Source: a virus
IMG/VR virus record: IMGVR_UViG_3300035204_000485
Location: 1 to 27,326 of that record
Strand: one strand, 5' to 3'
DNA: 27,326 bases
The translations under genes were made by a program, and so were the position numbers. Every line of letters starts with the position of its first letter. Position 1 is the first letter of the stretch. The notes under the pieces are model-generated. The model did not search any database and was not told the DNA's origin. It saw only the letters and a list, made by a program, of their open reading frames with translations. This document shows positions 9,819 through 19,958 of the stretch, piece by piece.

Positions 9819-11926
9819 TGGGATTTATGGCAGGATTTGGGCAAGGGTTCAGTCAATCCTTTAATGCCGCACAAGCACGTAAGCACCAAAGAGAACAGAC
9901 GCTACTGGCCTCTCGCCTTGGTGAGATTAAAGAAAATAAATCTAAGCGGGATGCAGCTAAGGCTAAAGAAACTGCCGCTATTCTGAAAGCTAAGGCTATA
10001 GCTAAAAAAATATCGGGAGCGCCTGCGGATTTTTGGACGACTATATTAGCTGACGTACAGGCAGGCCTGTCTGATTCTGCTATTATGAAATACTATGAAG
10101 GTGGTACATTCACTTTAAATCAACAAAGTAAAGGCACAGTAGCACCTGCACCCACAGCTAGTGACCCTGCGGTATCTGTAGAAGAACAAATGCAGAACGC
10201 TGTCCCTGTAGCTGACACTACACCCACACAAGATGTAACTGCCTCTGCCGAGCCTGCTCCTGAATCACAGAATTTCTTTGGTAAGCTGGCTGATGGCCTT
10301 CAGCAAATGGAATCCGATAAAGTAGACAACCAGATTAAGGCTACTATGGGTGAAGAAGCCTATGCTGCTGCCCAAGAAGAGTACACACCAATAACAGTAG
10401 ACTCAGGTAAGTATTCGTTTACGCCTAAAGAGGATGAAGGCAAGAAGCCTAAATACAAGGCCAACCCTACAGAGACTAACATTGCAGGCTTAATTTTCAT
10501 GGCTGAACAAGCTGGTGATACCGAATATGCTGCTAAGTTACAGAAATTGATGGATCAGTGGACTTCCCCTGAATTACCTAAAATAAACACCCTGACAACT
10601 GTTCAAGCCATTGAGGCTGCTATTGCACAGGTACAGGGCAAAAACATCGAAGGTGCTGAAGAGTGGCTCAAGATAGTAACCCCTCTAAAAAAGACACTGG
10701 AAGCGAACAAACCAGCTAATGAGCTATCCCTTGAAATGCAATTAGCAAACGCACACCTTGCCCTACAACAGGCCAAAGCTGCTGGCGATAACCAAAAAGC
10801 GGCCACGTTAATGAGCGATATAAGTATGCTGGAGGCCACTCTTAGGTATACTGCGGGGGTAGGCAAAACCACAACGTCAAACTTCTATGACCCAGATACA
10901 GGGAACATAGTAACCCTTACCAAAAAGGCCGTTGGCGGTGAACTTATTCATACCACACCAGATGGACAGCGGGTAGTACCTGCCGATGCTGGCCTTACAC
11001 CATTGACCGAAGCACAAACTGAAGCATGGGCCAAATGGGATAAATTCAATCATGATGTAACCGAGGATCACACAAATAATGTTATGAACCTAGCTGGTGC
11101 CTCTATACTTGGGCAAGCCGTTATTGAATCTGTTATAGATTCCAATGGGGGTTCTATGACCATAGCAGCAGATGCAGCACAAGTATACACTAGCATTAAG
11201 CACGAATTTAGTGCGATAGGTGAACTGTTATCTGACGCACCACCAGCGGGTATGGCAAGTGACACACTACGTAGGTACTTACCAAATCCTAATGCTGTAT
11301 ATACCTCTGATGAAATACTTGAATTGGCCCGCAATGCAGACACACTAGAATCTAAGATAGGTCTATTAGCCTTCCAAATTGGTTCTGCCTACGGCACCAG
11401 TGGTACTGCTATGTCTAACAAAGATTTGGCTATATTTATGAAAAGCCTAATTCCTGACAGTAAAAACCCTGTACAGGCTGTGGAGCAAATTCACGCTGTT
11501 ATCCTGACAGAGATAGCTAAGAATAGGGCCGCACCAGCGTCTTGGAAGAGCCATGCTACATATAAAGCCTTAGAGAGAGCCTTTAATGGCAATCCTCCTG
11601 AATCTGACAAAGGGTACATAGATACCATACAGTATTTACGTAATATGAATATAGAAACATCCCGCAAGGCTGCTGATATGTTCTCTATGGATACTAGTGC
11701 CTTTATGAAGATGTTGAGCCAACCTACCCAAGATGCCTCTGTACATGACAAAGGGTGGAATCGGATAACCAAAGACAATGTAGCTGAAGGTACGGCTGAC
11801 GCTAGTCAGTTAGGCCACTACTTTAAGATTTTAGAAGGGGGTAAGATGATAACAGCCCCTACTGTGGAAGAGCTACAGGATAAGCTGACCGCAGCTTTTG
11901 CAGCCGAATTAAATGGGAATAACTAA
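9818..11926 (+). CDS. 702-aa internal virion or DNA ejection protein
   Basis: The TAATG start yields MGFMAGFGQGFSQSFNAAQA, an N-terminus common in podovirus internal proteins (glycine/phenylalanine-rich, then a basic helix RKHQREQTLLASRL and KSKRDAAKAKETAAILKAKA). A Pro/Ala/Thr-rich linker spans about residues 105-145. Helical Ala/Gln-rich segments follow (LEMQLANAHLALQQAKAAGD), then a more globular C-terminal half with NPVQAVEQIHAVILTEIAKN. No transglycosylase or protease motif was recognised. Its size and place, directly ahead of a 1326-aa protein, resemble the order of ejection proteins such as T7 gp15 and gp16. This is by analogy, not by seen homology. Confidence 0.72.
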   Translation: MGFMAGFGQGFSQSFNAAQARKHQREQTLLASRLGEIKENKSKRDAAKAKETAAILKAKAIAKKISGAPADFWTTILADVQAGLSDSAIMKYYEGGTFTLNQQSKGTVAPAPTASDPAVSVEEQMQNAVPVADTTPTQDVTASAEPAPESQNFFGKLADGLQQMESDKVDNQIKATMGEEAYAAAQEEYTPITVDSGKYSFTPKEDEGKKPKYKANPTETNIAGLIFMAEQAGDTEYAAKLQKLMDQWTSPELPKINTLTTVQAIEAAIAQVQGKNIEGAEEWLKIVTPLKKTLEANKPANELSLEMQLANAHLALQQAKAAGDNQKAATLMSDISMLEATLRYTAGVGKTTTSNFYDPDTGNIVTLTKKAVGGELIHTTPDGQRVVPADAGLTPLTEAQTEAWAKWDKFNHDVTEDHTNNVMNLAGASILGQAVIESVIDSNGGSMTIAADAAQVYTSIKHEFSAIGELLSDAPPAGMASDTLRRYLPNPNAVYTSDEILELARNADTLESKIGLLAFQIGSAYGTSGTAMSNKDLAIFMKSLIPDSKNPVQAVEQIHAVILTEIAKNRAAPASWKSHATYKALERAFNGNPPESDKGYIDTIQYLRNMNIETSRKAADMFSMDTSAFMKMLSQPTQDASVHDKGWNRITKDNVAEGTADASQLGHYFKILEGGKMITAPTVEELQDKLTAAFAAELNGNN

Positions 11927-14900
11927 TGGGTACAGCGTCCACCAAGCCTGAAGGCACAGAAAAAACTATACAAGGTGTTACCTTTGTTACCAAGAATGGG
12001 GAGTGGGTAGTTGTAGATACTGGCAACCCTAGCATATTCCGCACTGCAAAGAAGGCAGAGGAAACTGGGCCAGCAGTCGAGGGCGATACTGCACCAGCCA
12101 ACAGAAATGTTCCCTTTTTTACAAATGAAGACTACGAGCCTTACCCTGAATCTCCCGGAGCAATCAAAAGGATAAGGTCTTGGGTATCTGATGCAGGAGA
12201 TTGGTTGTCTGGGAGCGATAGTGAGCCTAACGAAGTACAAAAAGAAGTAAGAGCGTATGATGCTGCTGCTGATGAAGTCCTCAAGCAGAACCAAGGCACA
12301 TACAACATGATAGGCGAACGGCATTTGGGGGTAGCAGAGGGTTTCTACCAACAGGCTAAAGAAAAACCTTATATAGGTAAGTTCAACTCGCACCCTACAG
12401 AGTTAGAAGGAGGCCAACCCGTACCAGAGGGGGCATACTATCAGAATACAGAAGATGGTAATCAGTATGCTTTGCAGAATGGTGAGTGGGGACAAGTGTA
12501 CGTATCTGGCCTCTACCCATTTAGTACCGATGTAAACAATGCTAACGTACTCTCTGGGAACATGACTACTTCAGAACCTACTCCTGCTGGGCGTATCCAA
12601 GAAGTAGAGATACCCAGTGCTGACGGTGGGGAGCCTGAAGTAAAGAAGATGGTAGTACCCCCACCTAGCCCTGACTCAATCCCAACCAAAATGGCAGAGT
12701 GGACTACTGAAGTTAACCGAGAGTGGACAGATGCTACCTTCGCTAAGACAGGTGACTTCTTTGCTCGTCTGGCTAATGGAGAGATCAGCCTTACAGAAGA
12801 TGGAGAGTTGGAAGACTCTCGAATTATCCAAGACTTAACTGGTGGCCAACAGTTTACTGCTGACTTTGCACGATATGGCTACGCAGCCATAGTAGGTGGT
12901 GCGCTGGGCAAGGTAGGTTTAGGAACAGTAGGTTTAAGTAATTCCGCAATTCTTAACGCAGAAGCACAGTTTGCTAGATACCTACATAAAATTAAAGGTG
13001 TACCTGTACGCTTGCATGTACGTAGACTCCAGAAGGCCGCTGAGAACGTAGCAGAAAAGGCCGCAGGGAAGTTCAGTAAAGACCCCGCCAAAGTTAAAAG
13101 GGTGGTGGATAACTTCGGCCAGACCATAGTAGTGGGTGGTTCTGCCTTGATAGGGGAGGCTGTAGTCACCCCAGAAGACACTGTACCTCTTCTAGTACGG
13201 AAAGATTATGTACAGGAAGTATTCAAGGATATCCCAGACCAACAGGCAGAAGATATTGCCGTACTTATTGATAGCGCCCTTCTAGGTAAGATACTTGTCT
13301 TAGCAGGTGGGGCAGTCATGTCCGTAGCTCGACCTGTTGCACAAAAGGCCGCAGGGTTTAAAAAATTACAGGACAAAGTGTTGAAGTCCTACGCTAGAAA
13401 GACGCAGGGTTATAAAGTAATCAACTACCTTGACCCTGAGATATTTGAGGGGCCAGTAGAGGTACAGGCATACAAATTAAAGCAGTTTGCTGATGCTCTG
13501 GGAGATAACAAGACAGCCACCTTAGCTTTTGGTGGTGTAGAGGGTCAAGTTAGACAGGAAACAATGCACTCCCTTCATAATGGGGTAGAGCAGTATGTAC
13601 GAAGAGCTTATGCCTATCGTGCTGACATGATGACTCCAGATGAATTTACAGACTTTGTGGGTAATAAAAGTAGCGAAATACTAAACAACTTCATTGCTCT
13701 ACGTAGAGCAGAGGGCAACATTCCTGAAATGATACAAGCCACCGCTAACTCTATGGCTGATGTATCCAATATTATCAATAGGGCGGCAGATAAGCAGGCA
13801 GATGCTTCTCGTATAGCTTCTGGTGAAACTGTTGATGCCTTAGAAACCCCCGGACAGAGGGCTATAGATGCCTCCCGTGAAGCTGGGGGAACCTTGGGCA
13901 GTACGCAACGGGATAAGCTACTGGATATAGAGGATGAAGTAGGGGGTAAAGCCCAGCAGATTTCTGACATAGATTCCCAGATGGGGGAGGTGATCCCTAC
14001 TGAGTTAGACAACGCAGGTTTATCTGACCCTAGAGGCCAGACACCCTACAGTACCTCTACACAAATGGAAGAGGTTATGGGTACACCGAATAACCAGACT
14101 GTGTTAGCAATTAAACAAAGTAGAGAAGCAGTTAACGCTGCATTCGATGACTTACCAGATAATATACCAGTAGATTGGGATATGTTCTTTGACGGGCTTG
14201 CAAAGCTAGACCCCAAGGCAAGTAACCCCATAGAGGCTTTGGCGAAGTTAGGACTAGAGTCTGATGGATACAATGCCATAAAGAAAGCTATAAAACCAGA
14301 ACCCGTACCTAAACTGGACGAGTTGGGTGCGCCTATGATGGACGATAATGGCATACCCTTAATGGTGTTAGAGACAAGGGAGCAGGTTATTGAGCGTCTA
14401 TCCGCAGACCCTTCGTATAACTTCAAGCAGTTGTTCAAAACCTTACGACCTGTGCTAGAGGATGATATTCAACGGCTCTATATCGGAGGGTACGCTTCAA
14501 AGACACAAGTCCCAAGAACCCTGAAGAAACTAGTAGATGACATGGCAGAAGCCAGTGGCGTACCTGCACTATCAGATGCAATGGATATGTACACCAAGCA
14601 TGTGTCTATATACACCCCTAATAAAGCCCTCGCAAATGTAGAGAAACAGGCAAAGCTAGTAAATCCTGAGCTAACACAGGCAGCAGGTACAGCTAAGGGG
14701 GCAACTGATGCCAACCAAGCCCTACGGCAGGTGGTAAACTCCAGTGAAGGGGATGCCCTAAACGAAGTGCTTACCATGCTTACGGAAGCTACGGGGAGAG
14801 ATGCTAAGGCAGGTTTCACTACCGCTAAAATTATAGAGATTAACCAGAAGGTATATAGGGATATGCTGGAAGGGAGGTTGGATGATGGTGGATTGCGGTC

Positions 14901-15906
14901 ATTGTTAGGCGCTATAGAGCCTGTGATGGAGTCTCTGAGGGTCAGTGATCCCCAGAAGGCTGCACAGCTAGAGGAGCTTACACGAACAGTACAAGACACC
15001 TTGTCGGGTATGGTAGATAAGCGGGAAACAGCTAAAAGGGGACTAGAGGCAGCACAGCAAGCCTTGAAGGTGCAACAGGATAATATCTTGAACGACTTAG
15101 TAGTTAAGATTGAAGGGGACGGGTACGCACTCAAGATGGATGCCGAAACCTACTTCCATGATATATTCCAAGGCAAAGGCTCCCAGAATAAGATTCAGAG
15201 ATTGTTGGGTGAAGTTTACAAGTTACCCACAGAGCAGAGGGGTACTGTGCTAGATGCTGTACAGGGTATATTCATTAGAGATTTCAGGAACGAGCTATTT
15301 ACTAAGGGGTCTGCTGGGTTTGCATCACCATCTGGTACGTCCTTACAAACAGAGGCAGTGAATGCCAGCTTGTCCAAGATCAAAAAGATGAAGGAGGGCT
15401 ACTTAAATCACACATTGGATAATGCGAGGATGTTGTTTGGTGATGACCACCCAACCACTATTGCTATCTTAGATGTTCTGAACAGTATGGATGTACAGTT
15501 GTCCAGTAACAATCTCAAATACACGGCAGGTTCCGATACCATCTTTAATGCTAGTTTGAAAGAATCTGTGGATATGGGTTCTGTGATTGCCTTTGGTATA
15601 CTTAATCCTACAGCTACCCTAGTGCGTAGGGCCACCAAAGGGCCACTGAGTAAGCACGAAGCTAAGGAAATGGCGTATAACAAGGACGCTATTGCCGCTA
15701 TACTGTCTGACCCAGAGGAGTTTGGTACGATACTTAAAGACCTAGCTGGTCATATACATCCAGAAGGCATTAAGGCAGCTTGGATACGTATGAGGAAGTT
15801 CTTTATTCGTACAGGCGTTATTGCAGCCTCCCGTCCGGGTGATGAAAGCGGGGGTATATCGGCCTCTGACGTAATTGAGCATACCAGAGGTATGTGGGAA
15901 GAATAA
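11926..15906 (+). CDS. 1326-aa large internal virion or ejection protein
   Basis: This is the largest gene in the window and the last of the late block, starting in a TAATG junction. Residues 1-250 are mixed and polar, with a VTFVTKNGEWVVVDTG motif. Two hydrophobic glycine/alanine-rich segments at about 317-343 (YGYAAIVGGALGKVGLGTVG) and 443-472 (AVLIDSALLGKILVLAGGAV) could enter a membrane. Long helical stretches follow (about 520-1170), and the C-terminal end is basic and aromatic (WIRMRKFFIRTGVIAASRPG). Such size and make-up fit the large proteins that podoviruses eject to form a channel across the cell envelope. No lytic transglycosylase signature was found. A bidirectional terminator follows 34 bases after the stop. 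Confidence 0.75.
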   Translation: MGTASTKPEGTEKTIQGVTFVTKNGEWVVVDTGNPSIFRTAKKAEETGPAVEGDTAPANRNVPFFTNEDYEPYPESPGAIKRIRSWVSDAGDWLSGSDSEPNEVQKEVRAYDAAADEVLKQNQGTYNMIGERHLGVAEGFYQQAKEKPYIGKFNSHPTELEGGQPVPEGAYYQNTEDGNQYALQNGEWGQVYVSGLYPFSTDVNNANVLSGNMTTSEPTPAGRIQEVEIPSADGGEPEVKKMVVPPPSPDSIPTKMAEWTTEVNREWTDATFAKTGDFFARLANGEISLTEDGELEDSRIIQDLTGGQQFTADFARYGYAAIVGGALGKVGLGTVGLSNSAILNAEAQFARYLHKIKGVPVRLHVRRLQKAAENVAEKAAGKFSKDPAKVKRVVDNFGQTIVVGGSALIGEAVVTPEDTVPLLVRKDYVQEVFKDIPDQQAEDIAVLIDSALLGKILVLAGGAVMSVARPVAQKAAGFKKLQDKVLKSYARKTQGYKVINYLDPEIFEGPVEVQAYKLKQFADALGDNKTATLAFGGVEGQVRQETMHSLHNGVEQYVRRAYAYRADMMTPDEFTDFVGNKSSEILNNFIALRRAEGNIPEMIQATANSMADVSNIINRAADKQADASRIASGETVDALETPGQRAIDASREAGGTLGSTQRDKLLDIEDEVGGKAQQISDIDSQMGEVIPTELDNAGLSDPRGQTPYSTSTQMEEVMGTPNNQTVLAIKQSREAVNAAFDDLPDNIPVDWDMFFDGLAKLDPKASNPIEALAKLGLESDGYNAIKKAIKPEPVPKLDELGAPMMDDNGIPLMVLETREQVIERLSADPSYNFKQLFKTLRPVLEDDIQRLYIGGYASKTQVPRTLKKLVDDMAEASGVPALSDAMDMYTKHVSIYTPNKALANVEKQAKLVNPELTQAAGTAKGATDANQALRQVVNSSEGDALNEVLTMLTEATGRDAKAGFTTAKIIEINQKVYRDMLEGRLDDGGLRSLLGAIEPVMESLRVSDPQKAAQLEELTRTVQDTLSGMVDKRETAKRGLEAAQQALKVQQDNILNDLVVKIEGDGYALKMDAETYFHDIFQGKGSQNKIQRLLGEVYKLPTEQRGTVLDAVQGIFIRDFRNELFTKGSAGFASPSGTSLQTEAVNASLSKIKKMKEGYLNHTLDNARMLFGDDHPTTIAILDVLNSMDVQLSSNNLKYTAGSDTIFNASLKESVDMGSVIAFGILNPTATLVRRATKGPLSKHEAKEMAYNKDAIAAILSDPEEFGTILKDLAGHIHPEGIKAAWIRMRKFFIRTGVIAASRPGDESGGISASDVIEHTRGMWEE

Positions 15907-18557: not shown

Positions 18558-18836
18558 TCAAATATTCTTACGGGCCATTCGGCCTTCGTATTTTTCCAAA
18601 AGGGTCTGGAATATCTCGTCATAGGTCACATCAAATAGACCCTGCAACAGCCCCATCCGCAGCCCTAGAGACAGGTACAGTGGATAATGTTCGACAGGTA
18701 TATCTACTTCAATTTCTTCCATTTCATCGGGGGTATCTTCGCCCTCATTAAATATAGTATCGTAGTTATCTTCATAAGCCTTGGTATTGGCTTTGCTCAC
18801 CAATTTATCCCCAGTAGTGGGGTTACTTGTTGCCAT
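18558..18836 (-). CDS. 92-aa acidic protein of unknown function
   Basis: The ATG at 18836 has AGGAG 7 bases ahead (AGGAGATACCTT). The N-terminal half is polar and acidic (DTIFNEGEDTPDEMEEIEVD); the C-terminal half looks like a folded helical unit (LSLGLRMGLLQGLFDVTYDE, FQTLLEKYEGRMARKN). Its ribosome site, start and first six codons are duplicated exactly 440 bases upstream. No family is recognised. Confidence 0.72.
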   Translation of the reverse strand: MATSNPTTGDKLVSKANTKAYEDNYDTIFNEGEDTPDEMEEIEVDIPVEHYPLYLSLGLRMGLLQGLFDVTYDEIFQTLLEKYEGRMARKNI

Positions 18837-18848
18837 AAGGTATCTCCT
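18818..18848 (-). repeat. 31-bp direct repeat, downstream copy (start of the 92-aa gene)
   Basis: Identical to 19258-19288. The repeat covers the ribosome site, start codon and codons for MATSNP. Confidence 0.95.
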
Positions 18849-19189
18849 ATTAAATGTTGGTTGTGGTTCACTTTAATGTATAAGAATTAGCTAAATTATA
18901 GGTTTTAATGACCCTAAAGTGATCTATATGTCACATTAACTGTACTTTTATGTGTAATGTGTAAGATAAGAAACATTACCCCATAATAAAGTAAGGTTGC
19001 TGGCACTCGGCCAAGTAGTCCCCGACCTTTATCCAGCTTATCTACCTACATGCCTGTAGGGATTACAAAGTGGAGCCTTTCCTCCTCCTAACTGATAGAC
19101 TCAAACAATTAGGTTATACCCGCAGCGTTAGTGGCTGTGGCCCACATACACTGTGGGGAGATGATATTTTTACTCATACTAACAATCTC
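18849..19189 (-). other. Gap without a convincing gene; structured DNA/RNA candidate
   Basis: No reading frame with good support was found; a 22-codon frame (19109-19177) has only a weak ribosome site. Inverted repeats are dense: CCTACA-TGCC-TGTAGG (19045-19060), CCCACA-TACAC-TGTGGG (19141-19157), TGGC-ACTCG-GCCA (19001-19013), AAGGT/ACCTT enclosing the last one, and an imperfect CTAACTG/CAATTAG (19089-19113). A strong ribosome-like AGGAGGAGG near 19080-19090 (minus strand) is not followed by a usable start. The left part (18849-18960) is AT-rich and has a TTAGCTAAT/TTATAC stretch resembling the other promoters only weakly. It may hold a small RNA, an mRNA leader or an origin; none can be proved here. 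Confidence 0.45.
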
Positions 19190-19276
19190 TTAAATTAGTT
19201 TATGTATATTGGATTCCACGGCTGTTAGTGCCTTAAAATCAGATTTATTTAAACCAATGGGGTTACTTGTTGCCAT
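19190..19276 (-). CDS. 28-aa reading frame sharing its start with the 92-aa gene
   Basis: AGGAGATACCTT lies ahead of the ATG. The product begins MATSNP, identical to the 92-aa protein, then differs (IGLNKSDFKALTAVES...). The identity comes from the 31-bp repeat. It may be a real short peptide, the remnant of a duplicated gene, or a decoy translation start. Confidence 0.45.
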   Translation of the reverse strand: MATSNPIGLNKSDFKALTAVESNIHKLI

Positions 19277-19288
19277 AAGGTATCTCCT
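19258..19288 (-). repeat. 31-bp direct repeat, upstream copy
   Basis: Identical to 18818-18848 and exactly 440 bases away. Flanks on both sides differ. Confidence 0.95.
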
Positions 19289-19313
19289 GTTTTACGGTCT
19301 ATCGTAAATTAGT

Positions 19314-19342
19314 AAAATACATGAACTAATACTTAGTCGTTA
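19314..19342 (-). promoter_or_regulatory. Possible weak promoter P3 (TAACGA-17-TATTTT)
   Basis: The minus-strand spacer and -10 region (TTAGTTCATG then TATTTT) match P1 and P2 in order and distance, but the -35 (TAACGA) is poor. It would serve the 28-aa frame and the structured gap, giving a leader of about 30 bases. Confidence 0.4.
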
Positions 19343-19393
19343 CGGACTACTATTTGGTGCATTGACGCTGTTGTTTAAAAACTCGGTTAGATT

Positions 19394-19408
19394 GGTACTA
19401 TTAGTACC
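19394..19408. promoter_or_regulatory. 15-bp perfect palindrome in a 149-bp gap
   Basis: GGTACTA-T-TAGTACC, a 7-1-7 inverted repeat, lies about 50 bases upstream of P3 on the minus strand. It could be a protein binding site; no second copy of the same sequence was noticed. Confidence 0.4.
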
Positions 19409-19437
19409 CATCCAGCAAAGTTTATCTAAAGTGGATT

Positions 19438-19611
19438 TCACGGCTTATACCTCCGAGGAATCCTCGGCAGTTCATCAGCAACTCTCTCTTCATACAGCGC
19501 ATCATAAGCCTTGGCGTATGCAGTATGAGCCTCGTGCAGCGCAGTATAGGCAGCAGACAACGCTGACTTAGCCTCCGACAACTCAGCTTTCAATTTTTCA
19601 ATATCAGTCAT
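19438..19611 (-). CDS. 57-aa coiled-coil protein
   Basis: The ATG overlaps the stop of the YadA-like gene as ATGA. The product MTDIEKLKAELSEAKSALSA then AYTALHEAHTAYAKAYDALY is an Ala/Leu heptad helix, ending in a short basic tail (RIPRRYKP). The ATGA overlap and strong heptad pattern support a real gene. A 15-bp palindrome (19453-19467, CCGAGGA-A-TCCTCGG) lies in its last codons and could form a 6-bp hairpin in the transcript. The function is unknown; it may pair with the upstream repeat protein. Confidence 0.7.
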   Translation of the reverse strand: MTDIEKLKAELSEAKSALSAAYTALHEAHTAYAKAYDALYEERVADELPRIPRRYKP

Positions 19612-19823
19612 GGGTTACTTCTCCATTTTTTCATATCCTTAACACCATCACCAATAGCTATAGCACCCTCTCCAACAGCCCAAGCACCTTTACCAATAGC
19701 CCTAGCACCATCACCATGCGCCCAAGAACCTTCACCTTTATGAATAGCTAGACCATTAATAGTCCAGCCTTCAGCGAGTAATTCGCTTTCTGTTTTACCG
19801 AATAATTCTTTTAATGTTTTCAT
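19608..19823 (-). CDS. 71-aa protein with YadA-head-like heptapeptide repeats
   Basis: Residues 1-31 are a short helix and strand (MKTLKELFGKTESELLAEGW). Residues 32-59 are four exact-length 7-residue units, GSWAHGD, GARAIGK, GAWAVGE and GAIAIGD, followed by a basic end (DMKKWRSNP). The GAxAxGx unit is that of the YadA head/Hep_Hag repeats, which form a left-handed beta-roll in trimeric adhesins. It is unusual in a small early-region protein with no signal peptide and no fibre. TAGGTAAG precedes the ATG. It may trimerise; the partner and target are unknown. Confidence 0.75.
   Translation of the reverse strand: MKTLKELFGKTESELLAEGWTINGLAIHKGEGSWAHGDGARAIGKGAWAVGEGAIAIGDGVKDMKKWRSNP
19647..19730 (-). 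repeat. Four 21-bp imperfect tandem repeats
   Basis: This is the DNA behind the four 7-residue units. Copies share the ggt-gct/gca-Ala-Gly pattern but differ at many third positions, so the repeat is old or held by protein selection. Confidence 0.8.
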
Positions 19824-19862: not shown

Positions 19863-19958
19863 TTAATCTTCATCATTCCAGCGACTGATCTGAAACATGA
19901 ACAAGACGCATATAGTGGCTAATAAAGCCCACTCTCTAGGTGTAATTTCTAAGAACAT
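19863..19958 (-). CDS. 31-aa single-span membrane peptide overlapping the nrdJ end
   Basis: A short frame begins inside the last codons of the reductase gene (10-base overlap, other frame). The product MFLEITPREWALLATICVLF then MFQISRWNDED has one hydrophobic span (about 9-24). The ribosome site is weak. Support is the overlap, the membrane-like pattern and the otherwise empty stretch between nrdJ and the next gene. Confidence 0.5.
   Translation of the reverse strand: MFLEITPREWALLATICVLFMFQISRWNDED

Follow-up and report, generated by a model that had tools for sequence, protein, structure and literature searches.

The window analyzed here is a 27,326-nucleotide stretch of viral DNA. The DNA polymerase it encodes shares 61% identity with that of Roseobacter phage CRP-3 and 39% with that of HMO-2011, which identifies the window as a genome fragment from an HMO-2011/CRP-3-like marine podovirus; podoviruses of the HMO-2011 type have been described (PMC9038755). 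Behind nrdJ, in the minus-strand replication and nucleotide module, lies the gene for a 71-residue protein (19608..19823, minus strand; translation MKTLKELFGKTESELLAEGWTINGLAIHKGEGSWAHGDGARAIGKGAWAVGEGAIAIGDGVKDMKKWRSNP). The original prediction placed this gene beside nrdJ and away from the fibers, and the map agrees, with the fiber-like genes (55-2825) found on the plus strand. The four bases ATGA (19608..19611, minus strand) join its stop codon to the start of a second open reading frame, which encodes a protein of 57 residues (19438..19611, minus strand). By sequence comparison, the structural half of the window appears far more diverged than the polymerase: the 1326-residue structural protein at 11926-15906 is only 22-23% identical to its counterpart in CRP-3/CRP-212, compared with about 60% for the polymerase.

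Residues 30-57 of the 71-residue protein consist of four perfect, uninterrupted heptads, GEGSWAH, GDGARAI, GKGAWAV, and GEGAIAI, followed by GDG. Paired into two 14-residue layers, GEGSWAHGDGARAI and GKGAWAVGEGAIAI (19653..19736, minus strand), they place glycine at positions 1 and 8, alanine at 6 and 13, and serine or alanine at 4 and 11. Four heptad units had been predicted, and the run is well beyond what composition provides: among 200,000 composition-preserving shuffles of the protein, 120 contained two heptads and none contained three. At the DNA level the run is a degenerate 21-bp tandem repeat of 4.5 copies, and no second run of two heptads occurs elsewhere in the window in any of the six frames. 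The published rule for left-handed parallel beta-rolls specifies 14-residue layers with glycine at positions 1 and 8 (PMC9543794); residues 30-57 form two exact layers of this kind, and the one homolog we found, described below, has about two and a half.

Family searches lead to the same class of proteins. YadA_head (PF05658) is the sole Pfam family match (E=3e-4); its score of 21.5 bits, like the 21.6 bits of the homolog, falls below the curated gathering cutoff of 25 bits, and is limited because the protein contains few repeats. In PDB, the YadA-type head of the adhesin BpaC matches best by sequence (7o23, E=1.5e-6, whole sequence), and the NCBIfam match is the Ata adhesin, at E=0.001 and far below that model's cutoff. 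A profile built from the 71-residue protein and its homolog, searched against 385 genomes of one class in a set centered on an alphaproteobacterial MAG, matched six genomes at E<=0.001, always in frames of 440-1580 residues; the matched frames that were read encode long proteins with many tandem YadA-type repeats. The layer rule and the matches in Pfam, NCBIfam, and PDB all point to YadA-type adhesin heads, and so sustain the assignment of the repeats first made from the sequence.

The description of the protein as made of such repeats, by contrast, proved too strong. The heptads account for 28 of the 71 residues, leaving 29 N-terminal and 14 C-terminal residues outside the repeat. Residues 6-29 (19737..19808, minus strand) constitute an N-terminal module, LFGKTxxELLAEGWTINGLAIHK, predicted to form a helix and then a strand, and most of its residues are identical in the alignment with the homolog. 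These N-terminal 24 residues are the best-conserved part of the protein, at least as conserved as the repeats; the module likely matters as much as the heptads do, and it may serve as a cap for the roll. A hydropathy scan detected no hydrophobic segment of the signal-peptide or membrane type (maximum 0.78 over 19 residues), in line with the predicted lack of a signal peptide.

We infer a layout in which this helical module precedes a two-layer YadA-type beta-roll. An AlphaFold monomer model of the 71-residue protein, made from the two-sequence alignment, has helices at 4-8 and 12-17 and then strands at 26-29, 32-36, 41-43, 48-50, and 55-57, one every seven residues after the two helices. The model of the homolog repeats the pattern with more strands at its C-terminal end. 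Both models are of low confidence (pLDDT 66 and 70, respectively; pTM about 0.5 for both), and Foldseek found no match for either in PDB or BFVD. Models this thin neither prove nor refute a beta-roll. Of the fold originally proposed, it is the repeat geometry that held up and a confident structural prediction that did not materialize. By analogy with solved rolls of the same type, the protein would most likely assemble as a trimer.

Scans of IMG/VR identified the one homolog at positions 260-502 of L001, a 6.4-kb T7-like contig encoding a primase-helicase, a polymerase, and an exonuclease (names read from the sequences). The two proteins agree at 35 of 54 residues (65% over 54 residues; E=2e-24 in the pair comparison), and the homolog also has four heptads. 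Between the genes, dN is 0.26 and dS 0.66 across 54 codons, for a dN/dS of about 0.4, and at 14 of the 35 identical positions the codons differ; the protein itself has therefore been kept, beyond its DNA. The only DNA that BLASTN found in common between the window and L001 is 158 bp at 74% nucleotide identity, inside this gene. Because the two contigs are otherwise unrelated, the gene has moved between phages. In L001 it is likewise an early gene, located before the primase gene, with flanks that differ from those in the window. Two close relatives of L001, L103 and L105, encode nrdJ products 88% and 82% identical to that of the window (truncated in L103, where the contig stops). Common possession of nrdJ would explain the passage of genes between the two phage groups, which appear to exchange the nrdJ-slot region.

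Further members of the family were sought widely. A tblastn search with the 71- and 57-residue proteins in 50,697 phage genomes returned none, and the same search with the L001 protein in plasmids returned only YadA-like adhesins and chance matches. Degenerate-DNA scans of IMG/VR for the N-terminal module and for two heptads gave, as other two-heptad matches, fibers, tape-measure-like frames, or chance frames, and scans of genome collections for homologs gave nothing or chance matches. The gene is absent from 14 related phage records, in a comparison run without a positive control. These searches found no homolog of known function for the 71-residue protein, and PADLOC profiles for anti-phage defense matched neither it nor its 57-residue neighbor. 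Among the titles and abstracts available to us, a partial coverage of the literature, none describes an early phage protein with YadA repeats that stands alone. A 116-residue protein of L008 was considered as a family member and set aside: it shares only the N-terminal motif LLADGWTINGYAIMKGE and lacks YadA repeats, and because it was retrieved with that very motif it is a lead only. Proteins of this kind with LLADGWTINGYAIMKGE are encoded in L008 (2197-2547), L010 (2394-2747), and L014 (3990-4343), slightly upstream of a DNA methyltransferase-like gene, and have no family match.

The 57-residue partner is a heptad helix with leucine prevailing at position a and alanine at position d (I4-L7-L11-A14-L18-A21-L25-A28-Y32-A35 by heptad scan), and it matches Pfam Alanine_zipper weakly (E=0.04, below the cutoff). 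A Shine-Dalgarno-like GGAG at 19621-19624 lies within the upstream gene. In L001, too, the next gene overlaps the homolog, through GTGA, with an ATG two bases farther along as another possible start, and it encodes a helical protein of 75 residues. The a/d positions read ILLLY/LAAAA in the 57-residue protein and LFCLV/LAAAV in the L001 partner, with a mostly large and d mostly alanine. We do not accept the two partners as homologous: neither local nor ungapped scores go beyond shuffles or real-ORF controls, with 9 of 1566 helix-like phage ORFs scoring as well and the score reached in 868 of 3000 heptad-class shuffles. BLAST between the partner genes found no DNA identity, while the first gene kept 74%, and neither scans nor tblastn revealed any homolog of the 57-residue protein. 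Conservation of the pair, the check set by the original prediction, is thus borne out for gene order, overlap, and the Leu/Ala plan, all of which recur in L001, but in one relative only and with no demonstrated homology of the partners; with a single homolog found, a conserved pair rests on two instances.

Two slots harbor small cargo units of several kinds, the pair among them. In the window, the slot of the pair is bordered on the left by a 31-residue ORF overlapping the end of nrdJ (19866..19958, minus strand), kept in L023 and L105, and on the right by a 92-residue gene beginning MATSNPTTG (18558..18836, minus strand). In L023, a sister contig whose polymerase is 90% and nrdJ 95% identical to those of the window, the same borders, namely the 31-residue ORF and, following directly, a homolog of the 92-residue gene starting MxTSNPTTG, enclose a thyX stub instead of the pair. 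This stub (11557-11679) encodes 40 residues from the N-terminus of ThyX, the FAD-dependent thymidylate synthase, and, over 23-24 residues, matches the N-terminus of ThyX from CRP-3 and from CRP-9 at 79-83% identity. Relatives lack the 71-residue gene and have the site after nrdJ filled by other cargo. Within the L001 group, other small genes take the corresponding position ahead of the primase, before a 70-residue gene upstream of it, in L102, L106, and L108. A membrane-like early protein of 80-83 residues, found in the T7-like contigs L105 (7213-7464), L106 (7629-7871), and L108 (5338-5583), sits in the nrdJ slot in L105 and in the pre-primase slot in L106 and L108; its presence in both indicates that the slots draw on one pool.

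Several features surround the pair. The 31-residue border ORF, MFLEITPREWALLATICVLFMFQISRWNDED, has a hydrophobic middle and is common to HMO-like and T7-like phages (window 19866-19958; L023 11458-11550; L105 7111-7206). Between the 57- and 92-residue genes, some 600 nucleotides (18840-19437) hold almost no coding-strand ORF. Part of this stretch, 18960-19190 on the minus strand, folds more stably than its shuffles (z -2.6) and matches no Rfam family; possible readings are a structured RNA and a remnant. A 49-nucleotide direct repeat with 84% identity (18803-18851 and 19243-19291) takes in the ribosome site of the 92-residue gene together with the opening codons, and its upstream copy opens a short ORF (MATSNPIGLNKSDF...); it is a duplicated gene start.

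Optional early phage genes usually act in host takeover or counter-defense. We tentatively favor an interpretation in which the pair is mobile early cargo of this kind, which occupies the variable slot behind nrdJ in the window and, in L001, another variable slot ahead of the primase gene. The helical N-terminal module (residues about 4-29) would cap a left-handed beta-roll of two layers (residues 30-60), the roll would probably assemble as a trimer in the cytosol, and the 57-residue Leu/Ala helix would be made in step with it through stop-start coupling. Such a roll would offer a rigid, multivalent scaffold, and its probable use would be early host takeover or counter-defense through binding of a host protein. 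Against this interpretation stand the low-confidence models with no Foldseek match, the Pfam score below cutoff, the presence of only two layers, the recovery of a single homolog, and the failure of the partners to exceed controls in similarity. A bolder version, in which a trimeric mini-roll head and a separate, non-covalently attached trimeric Leu/Ala stalk reproduce the plan of an adhesin in two subunits, as one early cassette across marine phages, strikes us as improbable; a head plus stalk in two genes may exist, its sole support being the arrangement shared by two genomes.

The mini-roll may instead act alone, with the 57-residue gene unrelated to it and the coupling simply the compact packing ordinary among phage genes. 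This is a real possibility, which we rank second: the likeness of the partners does not exceed that of control ORFs and shuffles, DNA identity is confined to the first gene, and small Ala/Leu helix ORFs occupy the same slot elsewhere, as in L102, yet order, kind of overlap, and the Leu(a)/Ala(d) plan all recur in two unrelated phages with differing flanks. We give little credence to the idea that the 71-residue gene is a relic, a YadA-type head piece of a fiber or adhesin gene captured into the early region and drifting there with no function of its own. Similar strings do occur in phage fibers, such as INGVAIGKGANSLG and INGLAIGKGGNSV in L227 and L235, and the thyX stub of L023 demonstrates that debris collects in this very slot, but a relic would hardly show a dN/dS of about 0.4 across 54 codons, keep start, stop, and ribosome site intact in two phages that are unrelated, and conserve an N-terminal module that is foreign to fibers. 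The closeness of the repeats to cellular adhesin heads could also suggest a small virion part, or an early decoy of a host trimeric adhesin head that disturbs assembly of the adhesin or hinders superinfecting phages relying on it; the early location, the absence of an export signal and membrane segment, and the lack of an identified host adhesin make either role unlikely.

In its repeats, the protein resembles the heads of YadA, BpaC, and Ata (PF05658) in its 14-residue layers with Gly 1/8, Ala 6/13, and Ser/Ala 4/11. It lacks the signal peptide, the stalk, and the membrane anchor of trimeric autotransporter adhesins, has only two layers, and is encoded in a phage early region. YadA-like phage tail fibers (L227, L235, L250, and L257) contain similar repeat strings, but within long frames of 353-1175 residues, whereas here they lie in an early gene that stands apart from the fiber genes. 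The partner, for its part, is like Leu/Ala heptad helices of the Alanine_zipper type in its large a and alanine d residues over about five heptads, although its match to that family is not significant. YadA-type rolls are, to our knowledge, a feature of exported adhesins and fibers. If the favored interpretation, that of a helix-capped cytosolic mini-roll, is correct, a stand-alone cytosolic roll of two layers would illustrate how far this fold can be reduced in size, would mean that phages have reused the YadA-type roll for something other than adhesion, and would make the 71-residue protein a convenient test case for a minimal trimeric beta-roll.
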